DNA of 51,941 nt from an uncultured Planctomycetaceae bacterium (lineage in GTDB: Bacteria; Planctomycetota; Planctomycetia; Gemmatales; Gemmataceae), in contig CAJCCR010000410.1 of assembly GCA_903960945.1 (NCBI GenBank), forward strand, positions 1-51,941. Reading direction: 5' to 3'. A program made the position numbers and the translations under genes. The notes beneath the pieces were generated by a model. The model made no database searches and was not told where the DNA came from. It saw only the letters and a program-made list of their open reading frames with translations. Below, piece by piece: positions 14,942-27,540 of this stretch; the first letter of the stretch is position 1, and each line of letters begins with the position of its first letter.

Positions 14942-16084
14942 TTAAAGGGAGAGGATTTCTTTAAGAGCTGCGATTATCTGGTCGATATCGCTTTCGGTAT
15001 TAAATGCACCGGGGCTGATTCGAACCGAACCATCAGGGAAAGTGTTGATTGATTTGTGGATATAAGGCGAGCAATGCAAGCCCGGCCTTACAGCTATGTT
15101 AAAGGCTTCATCAAGAATACTGCCTATTTCAGGCGCAGCAAGTGATTCCGACTGAAAAGAAACAGTTGCAACCGTACGGCTAAGGTCATCACTTCCAAAA
15201 ACAGTAACTCCAGGAATTTCTTTAAGATTGCTTCGAAGCTTTGCAACAAGCTTACTTTCTCTGTGATGAATGTTGTTCATGCCTTCTTGATCAAGCCAAG
15301 CCAAGCCAGCAGCAAGGCCTGCGATGCCAAGAACATTAGGTGTGCCACCTTCAAGGTGGTATGGCATTTCTTTGGGTTGTGTTTCAGTGGAAGAGTCGCC
15401 CCCGGTTCCACCTTCCCGCCAAGTACGAAGAGCAACGCGCTCTCCTGAATAAAGAAAGCCTGTGCCTGTTGGGCCAAAAAGGCACTTGTGCCCAGGGCAA
15501 GCTAGGAGATCGATTTTTTGGGCCTTAATATCAATTGGAACAACCCCAGCAGTTTGTGCTCCATCAACCAGAAAGATGATGTTTTTTTCTCTGCAGATCG
15601 TACCCACTTCGGTGATGGGCTGAATGGTGCCTAGAACATTGCTTGCATGGGTAAGTGCAACAAGTCGGGTTTTGGGGCCGATTGCATTTTTGATTTGTTC
15701 TGGATCGATGAAGCCCTGAGGATCAGCATTAATTTTTGTGACAGAGATTTTACCTGCGAGTTCCATGATGCGCAGGGGTCTACTAACGCTGTTATGTTCA
15801 AGATCGCTGGTGATAACATGGTCGCCTTCATTTAAAAGGCCTTTGAACGCCATGTTAAGGGCATCGGTGCAATTAAGTGTGAATACAAATCGTTCGGGTG
15901 CAGAACCTTTAAAAAGCTGATTGAGCCGATGTCTGCAATCATCGAGAACCCGTTCCGCTGCAAGTGCCATTTTGTGGCCAGCACGGCCTGGGTTTGCCAT
16001 ATCTTCGCGTGCAAAGCGATCCATGGCCTTATAAACCGATTCAGGTTTGGGGAAACTCGTTGCAGCATTATCGAGATAAATCAT
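14942..16084 (-). CDS. Class V aminotransferase / cysteine desulfurase family protein
   Basis: MIYLDNAATSFPKPESVYKAM; LTHASNVLGTIQPI; VDGAQTAGVVPID; GHKCLFGPTGTGFLYSG; VRPGLHCSPYIHK. Confidence 0.93.
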   Translation of the reverse strand: MIYLDNAATSFPKPESVYKAMDRFAREDMANPGRAGHKMALAAERVLDDCRHRLNQLFKGSAPERFVFTLNCTDALNMAFKGLLNEGDHVITSDLEHNSVSRPLRIMELAGKISVTKINADPQGFIDPEQIKNAIGPKTRLVALTHASNVLGTIQPITEVGTICREKNIIFLVDGAQTAGVVPIDIKAQKIDLLACPGHKCLFGPTGTGFLYSGERVALRTWREGGTGGDSSTETQPKEMPYHLEGGTPNVLGIAGLAAGLAWLDQEGMNNIHHRESKLVAKLRSNLKEIPGVTVFGSDDLSRTVATVSFQSESLAAPEIGSILDEAFNIAVRPGLHCSPYIHKSINTFPDGSVRISPGAFNTESDIDQIIAALKEILSL

Positions 16085-16108
16085 GTACAGCTCATCTGGG
16101 CGTTTGAA

Positions 16109-17149
16109 TTAGTGTCCGATGTAGCGGGCATAAAGCGTCTTTGCCCTGTCTATATCGCTTGTACCTTTAATTATAGCCCGCCCATCGGGGAAAACGGTGA
16201 ACTCACAGTCTTCAGCATTAAATTTAAGCATAAACTTGTTGAAGCTTACATCGCCCAGGGTCTTAAGTTGAGCAGCCATATCTTCAAACTTAAGTTTGTT
16301 AGGGGTACGATTGGAAATTTGAACAGCGTTTCTGCCACACAAACTTGTGGTTTGCGAACCGAACTCGCCATCAATCCATTCGAATTTTCGATGCTTGCAG
16401 CAAGGGCAATCAACCTTACCTAGAAGCGGGGCAATCTTTACCCTGCGATAGGTGTTTTCCCAAACATCAATCTGCACGAGTTCTTTGTTGATGGTTTCAG
16501 GTTTGCCTGAAAGAATCTTGATGGCTTCGGTGGCTTGCATACTTGCGATGATGTTTACGACGGGGCCAAGTACCCCTGCAGTTTCGCAAGTATCAGCAGA
16601 GCCGGGCGAGGGCGCAGCTTCAAACACACAGCGAAGGCAAGGCGTTTGATTGGGGATAATGGTCATGGTCATGCCATTGCTACCAATGACCCCACCATAA
16701 ACCCAAGGCTTGTTATACTTGACCGCAATATCGTTAATGAGATAGCGGATTTCAAAGTTATCGGTGCCATCAAGGATAAGATCTGCACCTTCACAAAGTG
16801 ATTCGATATTGGTGCGATCGATATCAGTGACTACAGATTCGATGTTAATGGAAGAATTGATTGCACGAAGTTTACGAGCGGCAGCTTCAGCTTTGGGAAG
16901 GTTTTCGGTGACATCGTTTTCATCGAAAAGAACTTGACGCTGAAGATTGCTAGGCTCGATAAAATCGCGATCAACAACCTTGATGGAGCCAACGCCTGCT
17001 CGAGCCAGGTTGTTGGCAAGCACGGTGCCCAAAGCACCGCACCCGCACAGGGTGACTTTGGAAGCTAGCAGCTTACGCTGCCCTTCTTCGCCCACCCCGT
17101 GAAAGCGCATTTGCCTGCTATAGCGATCAATAGACTTGAAGTCGATCAT
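16109..17149 (-). CDS. ThiF/MoeB/HesA-family E1-like adenylyltransferase
   Basis: SRQMRFHGVGEEGQRKL, GCGALGTVLANNLARAGVG, VDRDFIEPSNLQRQVLF, DGTDNFEIRYLIND, Zn-type CLRC...CPCC; extra C-terminal domain. Confidence 0.93.
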   Translation of the reverse strand: MIDFKSIDRYSRQMRFHGVGEEGQRKLLASKVTLCGCGALGTVLANNLARAGVGSIKVVDRDFIEPSNLQRQVLFDENDVTENLPKAEAAARKLRAINSSINIESVVTDIDRTNIESLCEGADLILDGTDNFEIRYLINDIAVKYNKPWVYGGVIGSNGMTMTIIPNQTPCLRCVFEAAPSPGSADTCETAGVLGPVVNIIASMQATEAIKILSGKPETINKELVQIDVWENTYRRVKIAPLLGKVDCPCCKHRKFEWIDGEFGSQTTSLCGRNAVQISNRTPNKLKFEDMAAQLKTLGDVSFNKFMLKFNAEDCEFTVFPDGRAIIKGTSDIDRAKTLYARYIGH

Positions 17150-17514
17150 TCGCCATCTCCTACGCCCATGTCGTCAAGGAAGGTATCGAGAACTTCGACG
17201 GTTCCGCCGCCCCATTTTTCTTCGCGAGCAAATGCAGCAAGAACAGCAAGGTCTTCTTTAAGCCTAGCAACTTCTTTGGCATTTAAGCGCTGAAGGTAGG
17301 TTGCAACTTGATCCAAGATTGCAGCACCTGCCTGTTGATTACAAATGTTCTCATCCGAGCCGGCGATGAAAACAACAAAATGCAGAAGGCTCAGAAGCAG
17401 GGGATTTGCTCCAACCTGATCAGGAATCTCTGGGAAAATTGCAGTTCCTTCTGGAACTTCAATGCTGTTTTCGTCCATATCTTCCATTTCGTCCATGTCT
17501 TCGTTGTCTGCCAT
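17146..17514 (-). CDS. Small acidic protein of unknown function in the sulfur-carrier operon
   Basis: 122 aa; starts overlapping the ThiF-like gene by 4 nt; follows the carrier gene by 1 nt. Confidence 0.75.
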   Translation of the reverse strand: MADNEDMDEMEDMDENSIEVPEGTAIFPEIPDQVGANPLLLSLLHFVVFIAGSDENICNQQAGAAILDQVATYLQRLNAKEVARLKEDLAVLAAFAREEKWGGGTVEVLDTFLDDMGVGDGE

Positions 17515-17515
17515 A

Positions 17516-17788
17516 TTAACCTCCTGCTACTGCCGGGATAATTGCTACTTCGTCGCCATCTTTTACAGGGGTGGCAAGGTTTTCGAGGTATCGCATATCT
17601 TCGTCATTGATAAAGATGTTTACAAATCTGCGCAACTGGCCATTATCGAATAGCCTTTGATCCATTGCTGGGTGAAGTTTACAAAGTTCGCCAAGTGCTT
17701 CGCCTACGGTGTTGGCACTAACTTCAATCGAAGCGAGATTGCCCGCATGAGGTCGGAGCGGAGTGGGGATTTGAATTTTAACTGCCAT
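17516..17788 (-). CDS. MoaD/ThiS-family sulfur carrier protein
   Basis: 90 aa beta-grasp-like pattern; VNIFINDEDMRYLENLATPVKDGDEVAIIPAVAGG, terminating exactly in Gly-Gly. Confidence 0.93.
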   Translation of the reverse strand: MAVKIQIPTPLRPHAGNLASIEVSANTVGEALGELCKLHPAMDQRLFDNGQLRRFVNIFINDEDMRYLENLATPVKDGDEVAIIPAVAGG

Positions 17789-17842
17789 AAATACCTTCCG
17801 GCGGAAAAGCCCGCATGTTAAAAGAAGCCAGATAATAGAGGG

Positions 17843-19102
17843 TTATGCAAGAACAGGTTCTTGGGTATTTTCCATGGTGGCTACGAACTCATCAAGCGAG
17901 GTTCCAATGGTAACAGGTTCGCCTAGTTGAGTCGTTAGGGAATCCTGAGTTTTAAGACCATTGCCTGTAATGAGTAGAACGATTTCTTCATTTTTGGGAA
18001 TGCGGCCCTGCTCGACCAATTTGCGAGCGGTTGCAACTGTAACTCCACCTGCTGTTTCAGCAAACACGCCTTCGGTTTTAGCAAGTAAAAGCATGCCTTC
18101 CCTGATTTCATCATCGGTAACATCTTCGGCCCAGCCACCGCTTTCGCGAATAAGCTTGGCAGCGAAGTAGCCGTCTGCAGGGTCGCCAATGGCGAGGGAT
18201 TTGCAAATGGTGTTTGGTTTTCGAACAGGGCGATGCGATTCCCAGCCGTTTTTCACTGCTCCACTGATTGGGTTACAGCCTGTTGCTTGGGCACCATAAA
18301 ACTTGGTGGAGGGTTCCTGCTTAAGAAGGTCGATCTTGTAAAGTTCTTGGAAGGCCTTGCTGACTTTGCCAACAAGTGCGCCACCCGCCATCGGGCTGAC
18401 CACATGCTGGGGGGTTCGCCAGCCCAGTTGTTCAGCAATTTCAAAGCCCATGGATTTCGAGCCTTCGGCATAAAATGGTCGGAGATTGATGTTCACAAAT
18501 CCCCAGCCGTACTTAAACGCCACCTGAGTGCAAAGCCTGTTTACTTCGTCGTAGGTGCCACGCACTTTAATCACATTGGCGCCATAAACCGAGGTACCCA
18601 TCACCTTGGCTTTTTCAAGATCCGAGGGAATAAAGATATAGCTTTGCATTCCAGCAGCAGCAGCATTGGCTGCAACACTGTTGGCGAGATTTCCGGTAGA
18701 TGCGCAACCCACGGTTTGCAGACCAAACTCACGGGCTTTGCTTAATGCAACTGCAACCACACGATCCTTGAAGGAAAGGGTGGGGAAGTTGACCGCATCA
18801 TTTTTTATCCACAGATTCTTAACCCCGATTTCTTTTGCCAGGCGGTCTGCTCGAATTAATGGCGTGCCCCCAACATGCAATCCTACGGTGGGTTCACCAT
18901 CGATCGGAAGCAGTTCTTGATAGCGCCACATGTTGAAAGTGCGGGCTTCTAATTTTTCTTTGGTAAGAACGCCTTTTAGGCTTTCATAGTCGTAATCGAT
19001 TTCCAATGGGCCGAAATCGTCCTGGCAAAAATTGACAGGGGTTACGGGATATATTTTGCCACACAAACGGCACTTCATGCCTTTTACAAAACTGGAAGAC
19101 AC
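17843..19102 (-). CDS. thrC: Threonine synthase family PLP-dependent enzyme (GTG start)
   Basis: CRLCGKIYPV N-terminal motif; GGTPLIRADRLAKEIGVKNLWIKNDAVNFPTLSFKDRVV; CASTGNLANSVAANAAAAG; GGAGGAAA ribosome-binding site upstream of GTG. Confidence 0.92.
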   Translation of the reverse strand: MSSSFVKGMKCRLCGKIYPVTPVNFCQDDFGPLEIDYDYESLKGVLTKEKLEARTFNMWRYQELLPIDGEPTVGLHVGGTPLIRADRLAKEIGVKNLWIKNDAVNFPTLSFKDRVVAVALSKAREFGLQTVGCASTGNLANSVAANAAAAGMQSYIFIPSDLEKAKVMGTSVYGANVIKVRGTYDEVNRLCTQVAFKYGWGFVNINLRPFYAEGSKSMGFEIAEQLGWRTPQHVVSPMAGGALVGKVSKAFQELYKIDLLKQEPSTKFYGAQATGCNPISGAVKNGWESHRPVRKPNTICKSLAIGDPADGYFAAKLIRESGGWAEDVTDDEIREGMLLLAKTEGVFAETAGGVTVATARKLVEQGRIPKNEEIVLLITGNGLKTQDSLTTQLGEPVTIGTSLDEFVATMENTQEPVLA

Positions 19103-19211
19103 TTGTCTTTCCTCCGTGTACGCAGGACAATAACCTGCTTTAAAATTGGCAGTCTTTTCCAGAGGAGGATATTTAGGCTTGGAGATAAAAAAGGGGCGTG
19201 CATTACGTCAC

Positions 19212-19329
19212 TTCTTATCTCTCCCGGCAAACCCGGGTAGGAGGTAGCACCAGCATCGTCGCGAATAAACGCTTCGACCGGTTGCTGTGGCTTCGACGGG
19301 CCTAATCCCTCTGCCACTCTGGATAAGAA
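19212..19329 (-). ncRNA. SAM-I (S-box) riboswitch aptamer
   Basis: Minus strand TTCTTATCCAGAGTGGCAGAGGGATTAGGCCCGTCGAAGCCACAGCAACC...GATGCTGGTGCTACCTCC...CCCGGGTTTGCCGGGAGAGATAAGAA; perfect 8-bp P1 (TTCTTATC/GATAAGAA), P4 CCCGG/CCGGG and the S-box core. Confidence 0.95.
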
Positions 19330-27120: not shown

Positions 27121-27540
27121 TATTCACAAGCTGGTTGGATAGTCGCTGCTGCTTTGAAAAAAGCGGGAGAGGAAAGTCCGGGCTCCATAGGACACGGTGG
27201 TGGGTAACTCCCACCGTCCGAAGTAGCATACTTAACTGTGTGTTGCGTAAGGGTAGGGAAAGTGCAACAGAAAGATACCGCCCCAAAAGGGTAAGGGTGA
27301 AATGGCGGGGGAATGCAAATTCCTTAATGTAAGAGCCCACCAGCAGCCTGGTGACAGGCTGGCTCGGCAAACCCCACCGGGAGCAAGGCCAAATAAGAAG
27401 GAAGGACTGGTCCGGTCCGTTTGACCTTCGGGTAGGTCGCTCGAGCGTTCGGGTAACCGTTCGCCTAGATAAATGGCTATCATCTTGCCTTTTTAAGGCG
27501 AGATACAGAACCCGGCTTATAGGCTGGCTTGTGAATATTC
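27121..27540 (+). ncRNA. rnpB: RNase P RNA (bacterial type A-like)
   Basis: GAGGAAAGTCCGGGCTCC, GCAACAGAAAGATACCGCC, AAACCCCACCGGGAGCAAGG, AGATAAATGGCTATC, ACAGAACCCGGCTTATAGGCTGGCTTG; P1 formed by TATTCACAAGC/GCTTGTGAATA. Confidence 0.97.

Follow-up and report, generated by a model that had tools for sequence, protein, structure and literature searches.

The locus and its closest described relatives

In 2011, Krishnamoorthy and Begley reportedly described protein-thiocarboxylate-dependent methionine biosynthesis in Wolinella succinogenes, a system made up of HcyS, HcyF, HcyD and MetY. A comparable route to cysteine, CysO/CysM/MoeZR/Mec+ of M. tuberculosis, uses CysM as a carrier-dependent PALP enzyme, and the peptidase Mec+ frees cysteine from CysO at the end of the synthesis (PMC3227635). 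The locus analysed here lies in a window (the whole stretch of DNA studied, 51,941 nucleotides) that corresponds to contig CAJCCR010000410.1 (C410) of the fragmented genome of an uncultured Planctomycetaceae bacterium (98.4% complete, 4.67 Mb). On its minus strand, running from 19329 to 14942, an S-adenosylmethionine (SAM)-I riboswitch is followed by genes for a threonine synthase (ThrC)-like pyridoxal 5′-phosphate (PLP) enzyme, a sulfur carrier, an acidic protein, a carrier-activating enzyme (E1) and a cysteine desulfurase. We consider it likely that this cluster is a SAM-repressed module that would form homocysteine from the carrier thiocarboxylate and O-phosphohomoserine. An earlier note on this DNA had proposed such a pathway, and comparative sequence evidence now supports its interpretation; searches against Rfam, Pfam and NCBIfam also bore out its description of a riboswitch with five co-directional genes, for all six elements and their coordinates. 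The genes are tightly packed, with a 4-bp overlap between the open reading frames (ORFs) of the acidic protein and the E1. The features are as follows.

19212..19329, minus strand: SAM-I (S-box) riboswitch aptamer (Rfam RF00162, 80.1 bits)
19111..19169, minus strand: possible expression platform (sequence and minimum-energy fold)
17843..19102, minus strand: ThrC-like PLP enzyme, 419 amino acids, GTG start; proposed carrier-dependent homocysteine synthase (Pfam, NCBIfam)
17516..17788, minus strand: ThiS/MoaD-type sulfur carrier, 90 amino acids, C-terminus AVAGG (Pfam ThiS, NCBIfam SAMP1)
17146..17514, minus strand: acidic four-helix protein, 122 amino acids (alignment and predicted model)
16109..17149, minus strand: MoeB/ThiF-type E1, 346 amino acids, which would adenylate the carrier (Pfam ThiF, PRK12475)
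14942..16084, minus strand: cysteine desulfurase, class V, proposed sulfur source (TIGR01977)

Like the Wolinella system, the present one combines a carrier ending in two glycines, an E1 and a JAMM peptidase, with homocysteine as the proposed product. The acceptor there, however, is MetY, of the Cys/Met PLP fold (Cys_Met_Meta_PP), whereas the operon enzyme here belongs to the PALP/ThrC family, and the proposed acceptor substrate is O-phosphohomoserine instead of O-acetylhomoserine. Further differences are the SAM-I control, the presence of a desulfurase in the operon and the location of the JAMM gene elsewhere. By analogy, the locus would share with the mycobacterial system a PALP-fold enzyme, a carrier thiocarboxylate, a phosphorylated amino acid and release by a peptidase (PMC3227635); the mycobacterial acceptor, though, is of the CysM family, its product is cysteine and its E1 carries a rhodanese domain, which was not found in the E1 described here. 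Since the acceptor enzyme differs, the locus is a member of neither system as defined. An archaeal thrC-cysH fusion was set aside, its arrangement being different. No report of a ThrC-type acceptor was found in the open-access literature searched, outside which one may have been published, and within that literature the claim that a ThrC-family acceptor under SAM control would be new is upheld.

The ThrC-like enzyme forms a clade of its own

The ThrC-like ORF matches Pfam PALP with 242 bits and passes the NCBIfam threonine synthase model TIGR00260 (278.6 bits, cut-off 167.1). The cysKM and cysteate synthase (TIGR03844) models give only 47.5 bits against a cut-off of 344 and 66.6 bits against 324.9, respectively, which places the protein outside both subfamilies. 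The best PDB matches of its AlphaFold model (predicted local distance difference test, pLDDT, 86) are threonine synthases, and the protein has the ThrC fold and the PLP lysine. In fold, PLP lysine and probable substrate (O-phosphohomoserine) it thus resembles threonine synthase (TIGR00260; PDB 2zsj, 6cgq and 1uim). Nevertheless, the 121 ThrC-like sequences form a fully supported clade apart from all others (support 1.0, branch 1.02), and their motifs differ in a consistent manner. That is, the PLP-lysine motif SFKD is retained in all 121 sequences and TGNGLK in 118, whereas TGNTS has become TGNLA in 119, GNxGN is of MAGGS type in 110, EPASA reads ETAGG in 120 and VNSxNPxR is of VNxNxRPFY type in 116. 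The ThrC forms TGNTS, GNxGN, EPAS and VNSxNPxR occur in none of the 121, as compared with 12, 12, 12 and 7 of 12 comparison ThrC proteins, respectively, and none of these 12 carries the new forms. According to published structures, the changed positions probably correspond to those that contact the substrate phosphate in ThrC.

The genome contains two further ThrC paralogues, a 470-amino-acid ThrC adjoining dapB (L003) and a PRK08197-type protein located at L002:1465-2649 (-), which answers in the affirmative whether another thrC exists besides the one in the cluster. At E<=1e-30, the L003 type was detected in 56 of 59 relatives, whether or not they have a ThrC-like gene, a few of these matches being merely the ThrC-like gene or a fragment. 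The ThrC-like protein is thus one of several candidates and, with a ThrC encoded separately both here and in the majority of relatives, is on this comparison probably not the threonine synthase of the cell. It could instead be a second threonine synthase, the neighbouring genes being an unrelated adjacent sulfur-carrier system, and the score above the thrC cut-off, the fold and the retained PLP lysine and TGNGLK motif would all agree with this. However, all substrate-side motifs are altered, a distinct ThrC lies near the ThrC-like gene at one locus (L152, see below), the pair of ThrC-like and carrier genes, which are nearly always side by side, is maintained across phyla, and the leader senses SAM and not threonine. 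We therefore regard a second threonine synthase as unlikely.

Carrier, activating enzyme, desulfurase and acidic protein

The carrier, a small ubiquitin-like protein, matches Pfam ThiS (55.7 bits), with SAMP1 as best NCBIfam model (61.5 bits), and with its two C-terminal glycines and cognate E1 it provides the pair on which protein-thiocarboxylate-dependent methionine biosynthesis relies. The E1 matches Pfam ThiF (277.7 bits); its best NCBIfam model is the MoeB/ThiF adenylyltransferase PRK12475 (389 bits, below cut-off). The desulfurase exceeds the cut-off of TIGR01977 (436.6 versus 377 bits). SAMP1 being an archaeal modifier and molybdenum cofactor carrier, and members of this E1 family being able to serve several carriers (PMC3227635), carrier and E1 might instead act in tRNA thiolation, protein modification, or thiamin or molybdenum cofactor synthesis, with the ThrC-like protein as a bystander or target. 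This is the least probable of the alternatives considered, given that the partnership conserved is with the ThrC-like gene and not with tRNA or molybdenum cofactor genes, and that SAM control fits methionine. Moreover, a MoaD-MoaE-MoaA cluster and a ThiS-ThiG fusion, both identified by reading their sequences, are encoded separately in the genome, so that on present evidence the carrier does not seem to be needed for molybdenum cofactor or thiamin; a function of carrier and E1 solely in these syntheses, which would have undone the earlier proposal, is thereby disfavoured.

Some carriers outside the planctomycetes have 1-4 residues after the GG or carry a fused NIL domain, and would therefore need a peptidase cut before use. 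The C-terminal NIL fusion (171 amino acids) was seen at L100, L101, L104, L107, L119, L146 and L156, with Pfam confirmation for L100, L101 and L119, and free NIL proteins are encoded near the ThrC-like loci L121, L129, L132 and L149.

A different product, such as cysteine made, as by CysM/CysO, from O-phosphoserine, or another thiol or a sulfonate, was also considered. The mycobacterial CysM is indeed a carrier-dependent PALP enzyme (PMC3227635), and CysK/CysM-like genes adjoin the ThrC-like gene at some loci; however, the CysK/CysM genes at those loci are present in addition, and cysteine formation is already covered. Furthermore, sulfur in the operon would derive from cysteine through the desulfurase, so that by this reasoning a cysteine product would amount to a futile loop. 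In addition, the leader is a SAM sensor, and the cysteate synthase model stays far below its cut-off. We hold this alternative to be quite unlikely. A ThiS-CysM-type fusion adjoins the ThrC-like and carrier genes at L129:6656-7756 (ThiS and PALP by Pfam) and, with a similar N-terminus, at L132:1204-2340, which suggests parallel carrier-dependent formation of cysteine and homocysteine.

The acidic protein has no Pfam or NCBIfam match. Among the genomes examined it was seen only in Gemmataceae-like ones, to which all 26 of the 40 neighbourhoods containing it belong, and 20 orthologues align at 47% mean identity. Its model shows a bundle of four helices and, at the N-terminus, a disordered acidic stretch; a fold search gave no significant match, and as a guess the protein could be a scaffold or a carrier handler.

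Conservation of the cluster and of the SAM-I riboswitch

The ThrC-like protein is present in 47 of the 59 related genomes (E<=1e-60). Among 40 planctomycete neighbourhoods, the carrier follows it in 39; an E1 was found in 34 of them and a desulfurase in 25, with several contigs ending early. Given this presence and the conservation of the neighbours and the riboswitch, the arrangement is not a chance one. When one genome was scanned for each species, at least 591 places were found to encode ThrC-like relatives, and the best 80 of these include loci from Verrucomicrobiota, Deltaproteobacteria, Mariprofundus, Nitrospirota, Nitrospinota, Dadabacteria, Acidobacteriota, Omnitrophota and others; in about 75 of the 80, the ThrC-like gene is followed by one for a carrier of this family. 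In other phyla, genes for JAMM proteins, for sulfite reductase-TusA proteins and for E1s share the ThrC-like neighbourhood.

The riboswitch matches RF00162 over its full length (positions 1-108; E 2.4e-17; gathering cut-off 44.4 bits). Downstream of it, TCCTCC (19169-19164) is able to pair with the Shine-Dalgarno sequence GGAGG (19115-19111) of the ThrC-like gene according to sequence and minimum-energy fold, a pairing that is possibly the expression platform. By Rfam search, a SAM-I riboswitch precedes the ThrC-like gene in all nine planctomycete relatives tested and at 19 of 33 non-planctomycete loci tested (9/14, 8/8 and 2/11 in three batches); none was found at the tested loci of Dadabacteria, Omnitrophota, Margulisbacteria and several others, and SAM control is therefore common but not universal. 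The neighbourhood of riboswitch, ThrC-like and carrier genes is thus kept across phyla, as a check proposed with the original reading had asked, which supports the links to both SAM and the carrier. No SAM-I riboswitch was found in searches at MetX/MetY, JAMM and other ThrC loci, or at L004, a Cys/Met PLP gene discussed below. At L099:1394-3795 and L149:1414-3753 a SAM-I riboswitch is followed by a CysK-type gene and then the ThrC-like gene; there, one leader appears to be common to cysteine and homocysteine genes. Scans for promoters and terminators yielded no signal that stood clearly above chance. Elsewhere in the window, an RNase P RNA of class A lies at 27127-27535 (+).

Candidate release peptidase and missing methionine genes

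A 148-amino-acid JAMM protein is encoded on another contig (C276), adjoining argG, with the motif HSHPVSFPKMSKKD (HxHx7SxxD) and an upstream glutamate intact. The peptidase component of protein-thiocarboxylate-dependent methionine biosynthesis is thus present in the genome. JAMM genes (E<1e-12) occur in 42 of 47 Planctomycetota genomes with the ThrC-like gene versus 3 of 12 without it (Fisher p 2.6e-5, shared ancestry ignored).

A MetH-type protein is encoded in a 1253-codon open frame of the window's genome, where no MetX was found; MetA is absent from all 59 genomes. The only full-length Cys_Met_Meta_PP gene, L004, lies outside the operon, it reaches none of the equivalog cut-offs compared, and no curated subfamily fits. 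To the earlier question whether metX, metB, metY and metZ are missing, the answer is thus yes for MetX, with MetA lacking too, yet not for the Cys/Met PLP family, of which this one gene is present; in these searches for MetX, MetA and Cys/Met PLP genes, a complete canonical methionine pathway elsewhere in the genome, which would have spoken against the proposal, was not found. Genomes with other ThrC-like loci show a similar picture, 34 of 42 having no MetX and 26 of 36 ThrC-like genomes having no gene of the Cys_Met_Meta_PP (MetB/MetC/MetY/MetZ) family (E<=1e-25) versus its presence in 13 of 14 controls, with completeness not given for most of the genomes behind the 34/42 and 26/36 counts. 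Four relatives without the ThrC-like gene (G046, G047, G052 and G056) carry adjacent pairs of Cys/Met PLP genes and neither MetX (E<=1e-20) nor MetA.

In a genome without MetX and MetA, L004 as the sole full-length gene of its family might act on O-phosphohomoserine, as cystathionine gamma-synthase of plants does, and so be the source of homocysteine. However, a cystathionine route depends on a further enzyme from the same or another family, no Cys_Met_Meta_PP gene (E<=1e-25) is found in the ThrC-like relatives G021 and G030 (93% complete) or in 24 of 34 other-locus genomes, and no riboswitch was found at L004. This explanation thus seems very unlikely.

A Nitrospirota operon and the proposed acceptor substrate

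At L152, in Nitrospirota, the gene order is homoserine dehydrogenase, TusA, E1, JAMM, ThrC-like, carrier, separate ThrC and proposed homoserine kinase (TIGR02535), with an ORF further downstream whose N-terminus reads like that of an aspartokinase. That genome lacks MetX as well as any Cys/Met PLP gene (Cys_Met_Meta_PP, E<=1e-25). Of all single observations, this locus speaks most strongly for O-phosphohomoserine as the substrate.

Proposed pathway

In the homocysteine-forming module that we propose, the E1 would adenylate the C-terminal glycine of the carrier, to which the desulfurase, judging from the families involved, would hand cysteine sulfur to give the thiocarboxylate; for other phyla, sulfite reductase and TusA are a possible source of the sulfur. 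The ThrC-like enzyme would bind O-phosphohomoserine on PLP and eliminate phosphate as ThrC does, after which the carrier thiocarboxylate, in place of water, would act as the nucleophile and add at the gamma carbon. The JAMM peptidase, whose gene lies elsewhere in the genome, would then cleave the carrier-homocysteine adduct, much as Mec+ cleaves CysO-cysteine, and homocysteine would pass to MetH. High SAM would switch the operon off through the riboswitch.

Several observations weigh against this proposal. The VNSxNPxR arginine, the phosphate binder of ThrC, is replaced in the ThrC-like proteins (VNxNxRPFY), and an acceptor other than O-phosphohomoserine is therefore possible. O-phosphohomoserine is a putative acceptor, and no homoserine kinase was identified in the window's genome, TIGR00191 and TIGR02535 not having been searched across the ThrC-like genomes. 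Acceptor, product and thiocarboxylate chemistry alike are deduced from comparative evidence. The operon holds no JAMM gene, the co-occurrence counts take no account of shared ancestry, and 14 of the 33 non-planctomycete loci tested have no SAM-I riboswitch. Moreover, L004 exists as an uncharacterised Cys/Met PLP gene, the search that found no complete canonical methionine route did not extend to the DUF39 route, and MetX is present in 10 of the 47 ThrC-like relatives, so that the module is not always the sole route.

Implications

The initial reading of this DNA did not include the JAMM peptidase, the occurrence outside Planctomycetota or the changes in active-site motifs. Price and co-workers stated in 2018 that at least one further homocysteine pathway was still to be found (PMC5764234, a paper that also cites the 2011 Wolinella work), and the module is a concrete candidate for this missing pathway in many phyla, little-studied ones among them. 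It is liable to misannotation because the ThrC-like protein passes the threonine synthase cut-off. On balance we favour the view that it represents a widespread, unrecognised route in which an enzyme of the ThrC family, carrying the annotation threonine synthase, would use carrier thiocarboxylate and O-phosphohomoserine. The route would stand in for MetX/MetA and in many cases for all of MetB/MetC/MetY/MetZ, often under a SAM-I riboswitch. If so, a second PLP fold would have been recruited for carrier-dependent homocysteine formation, and the route would explain how bacteria without the textbook enzymes make methionine, and with it the methionine gaps predicted for Planctomycetota, Verrucomicrobiota, Nitrospirota and others.

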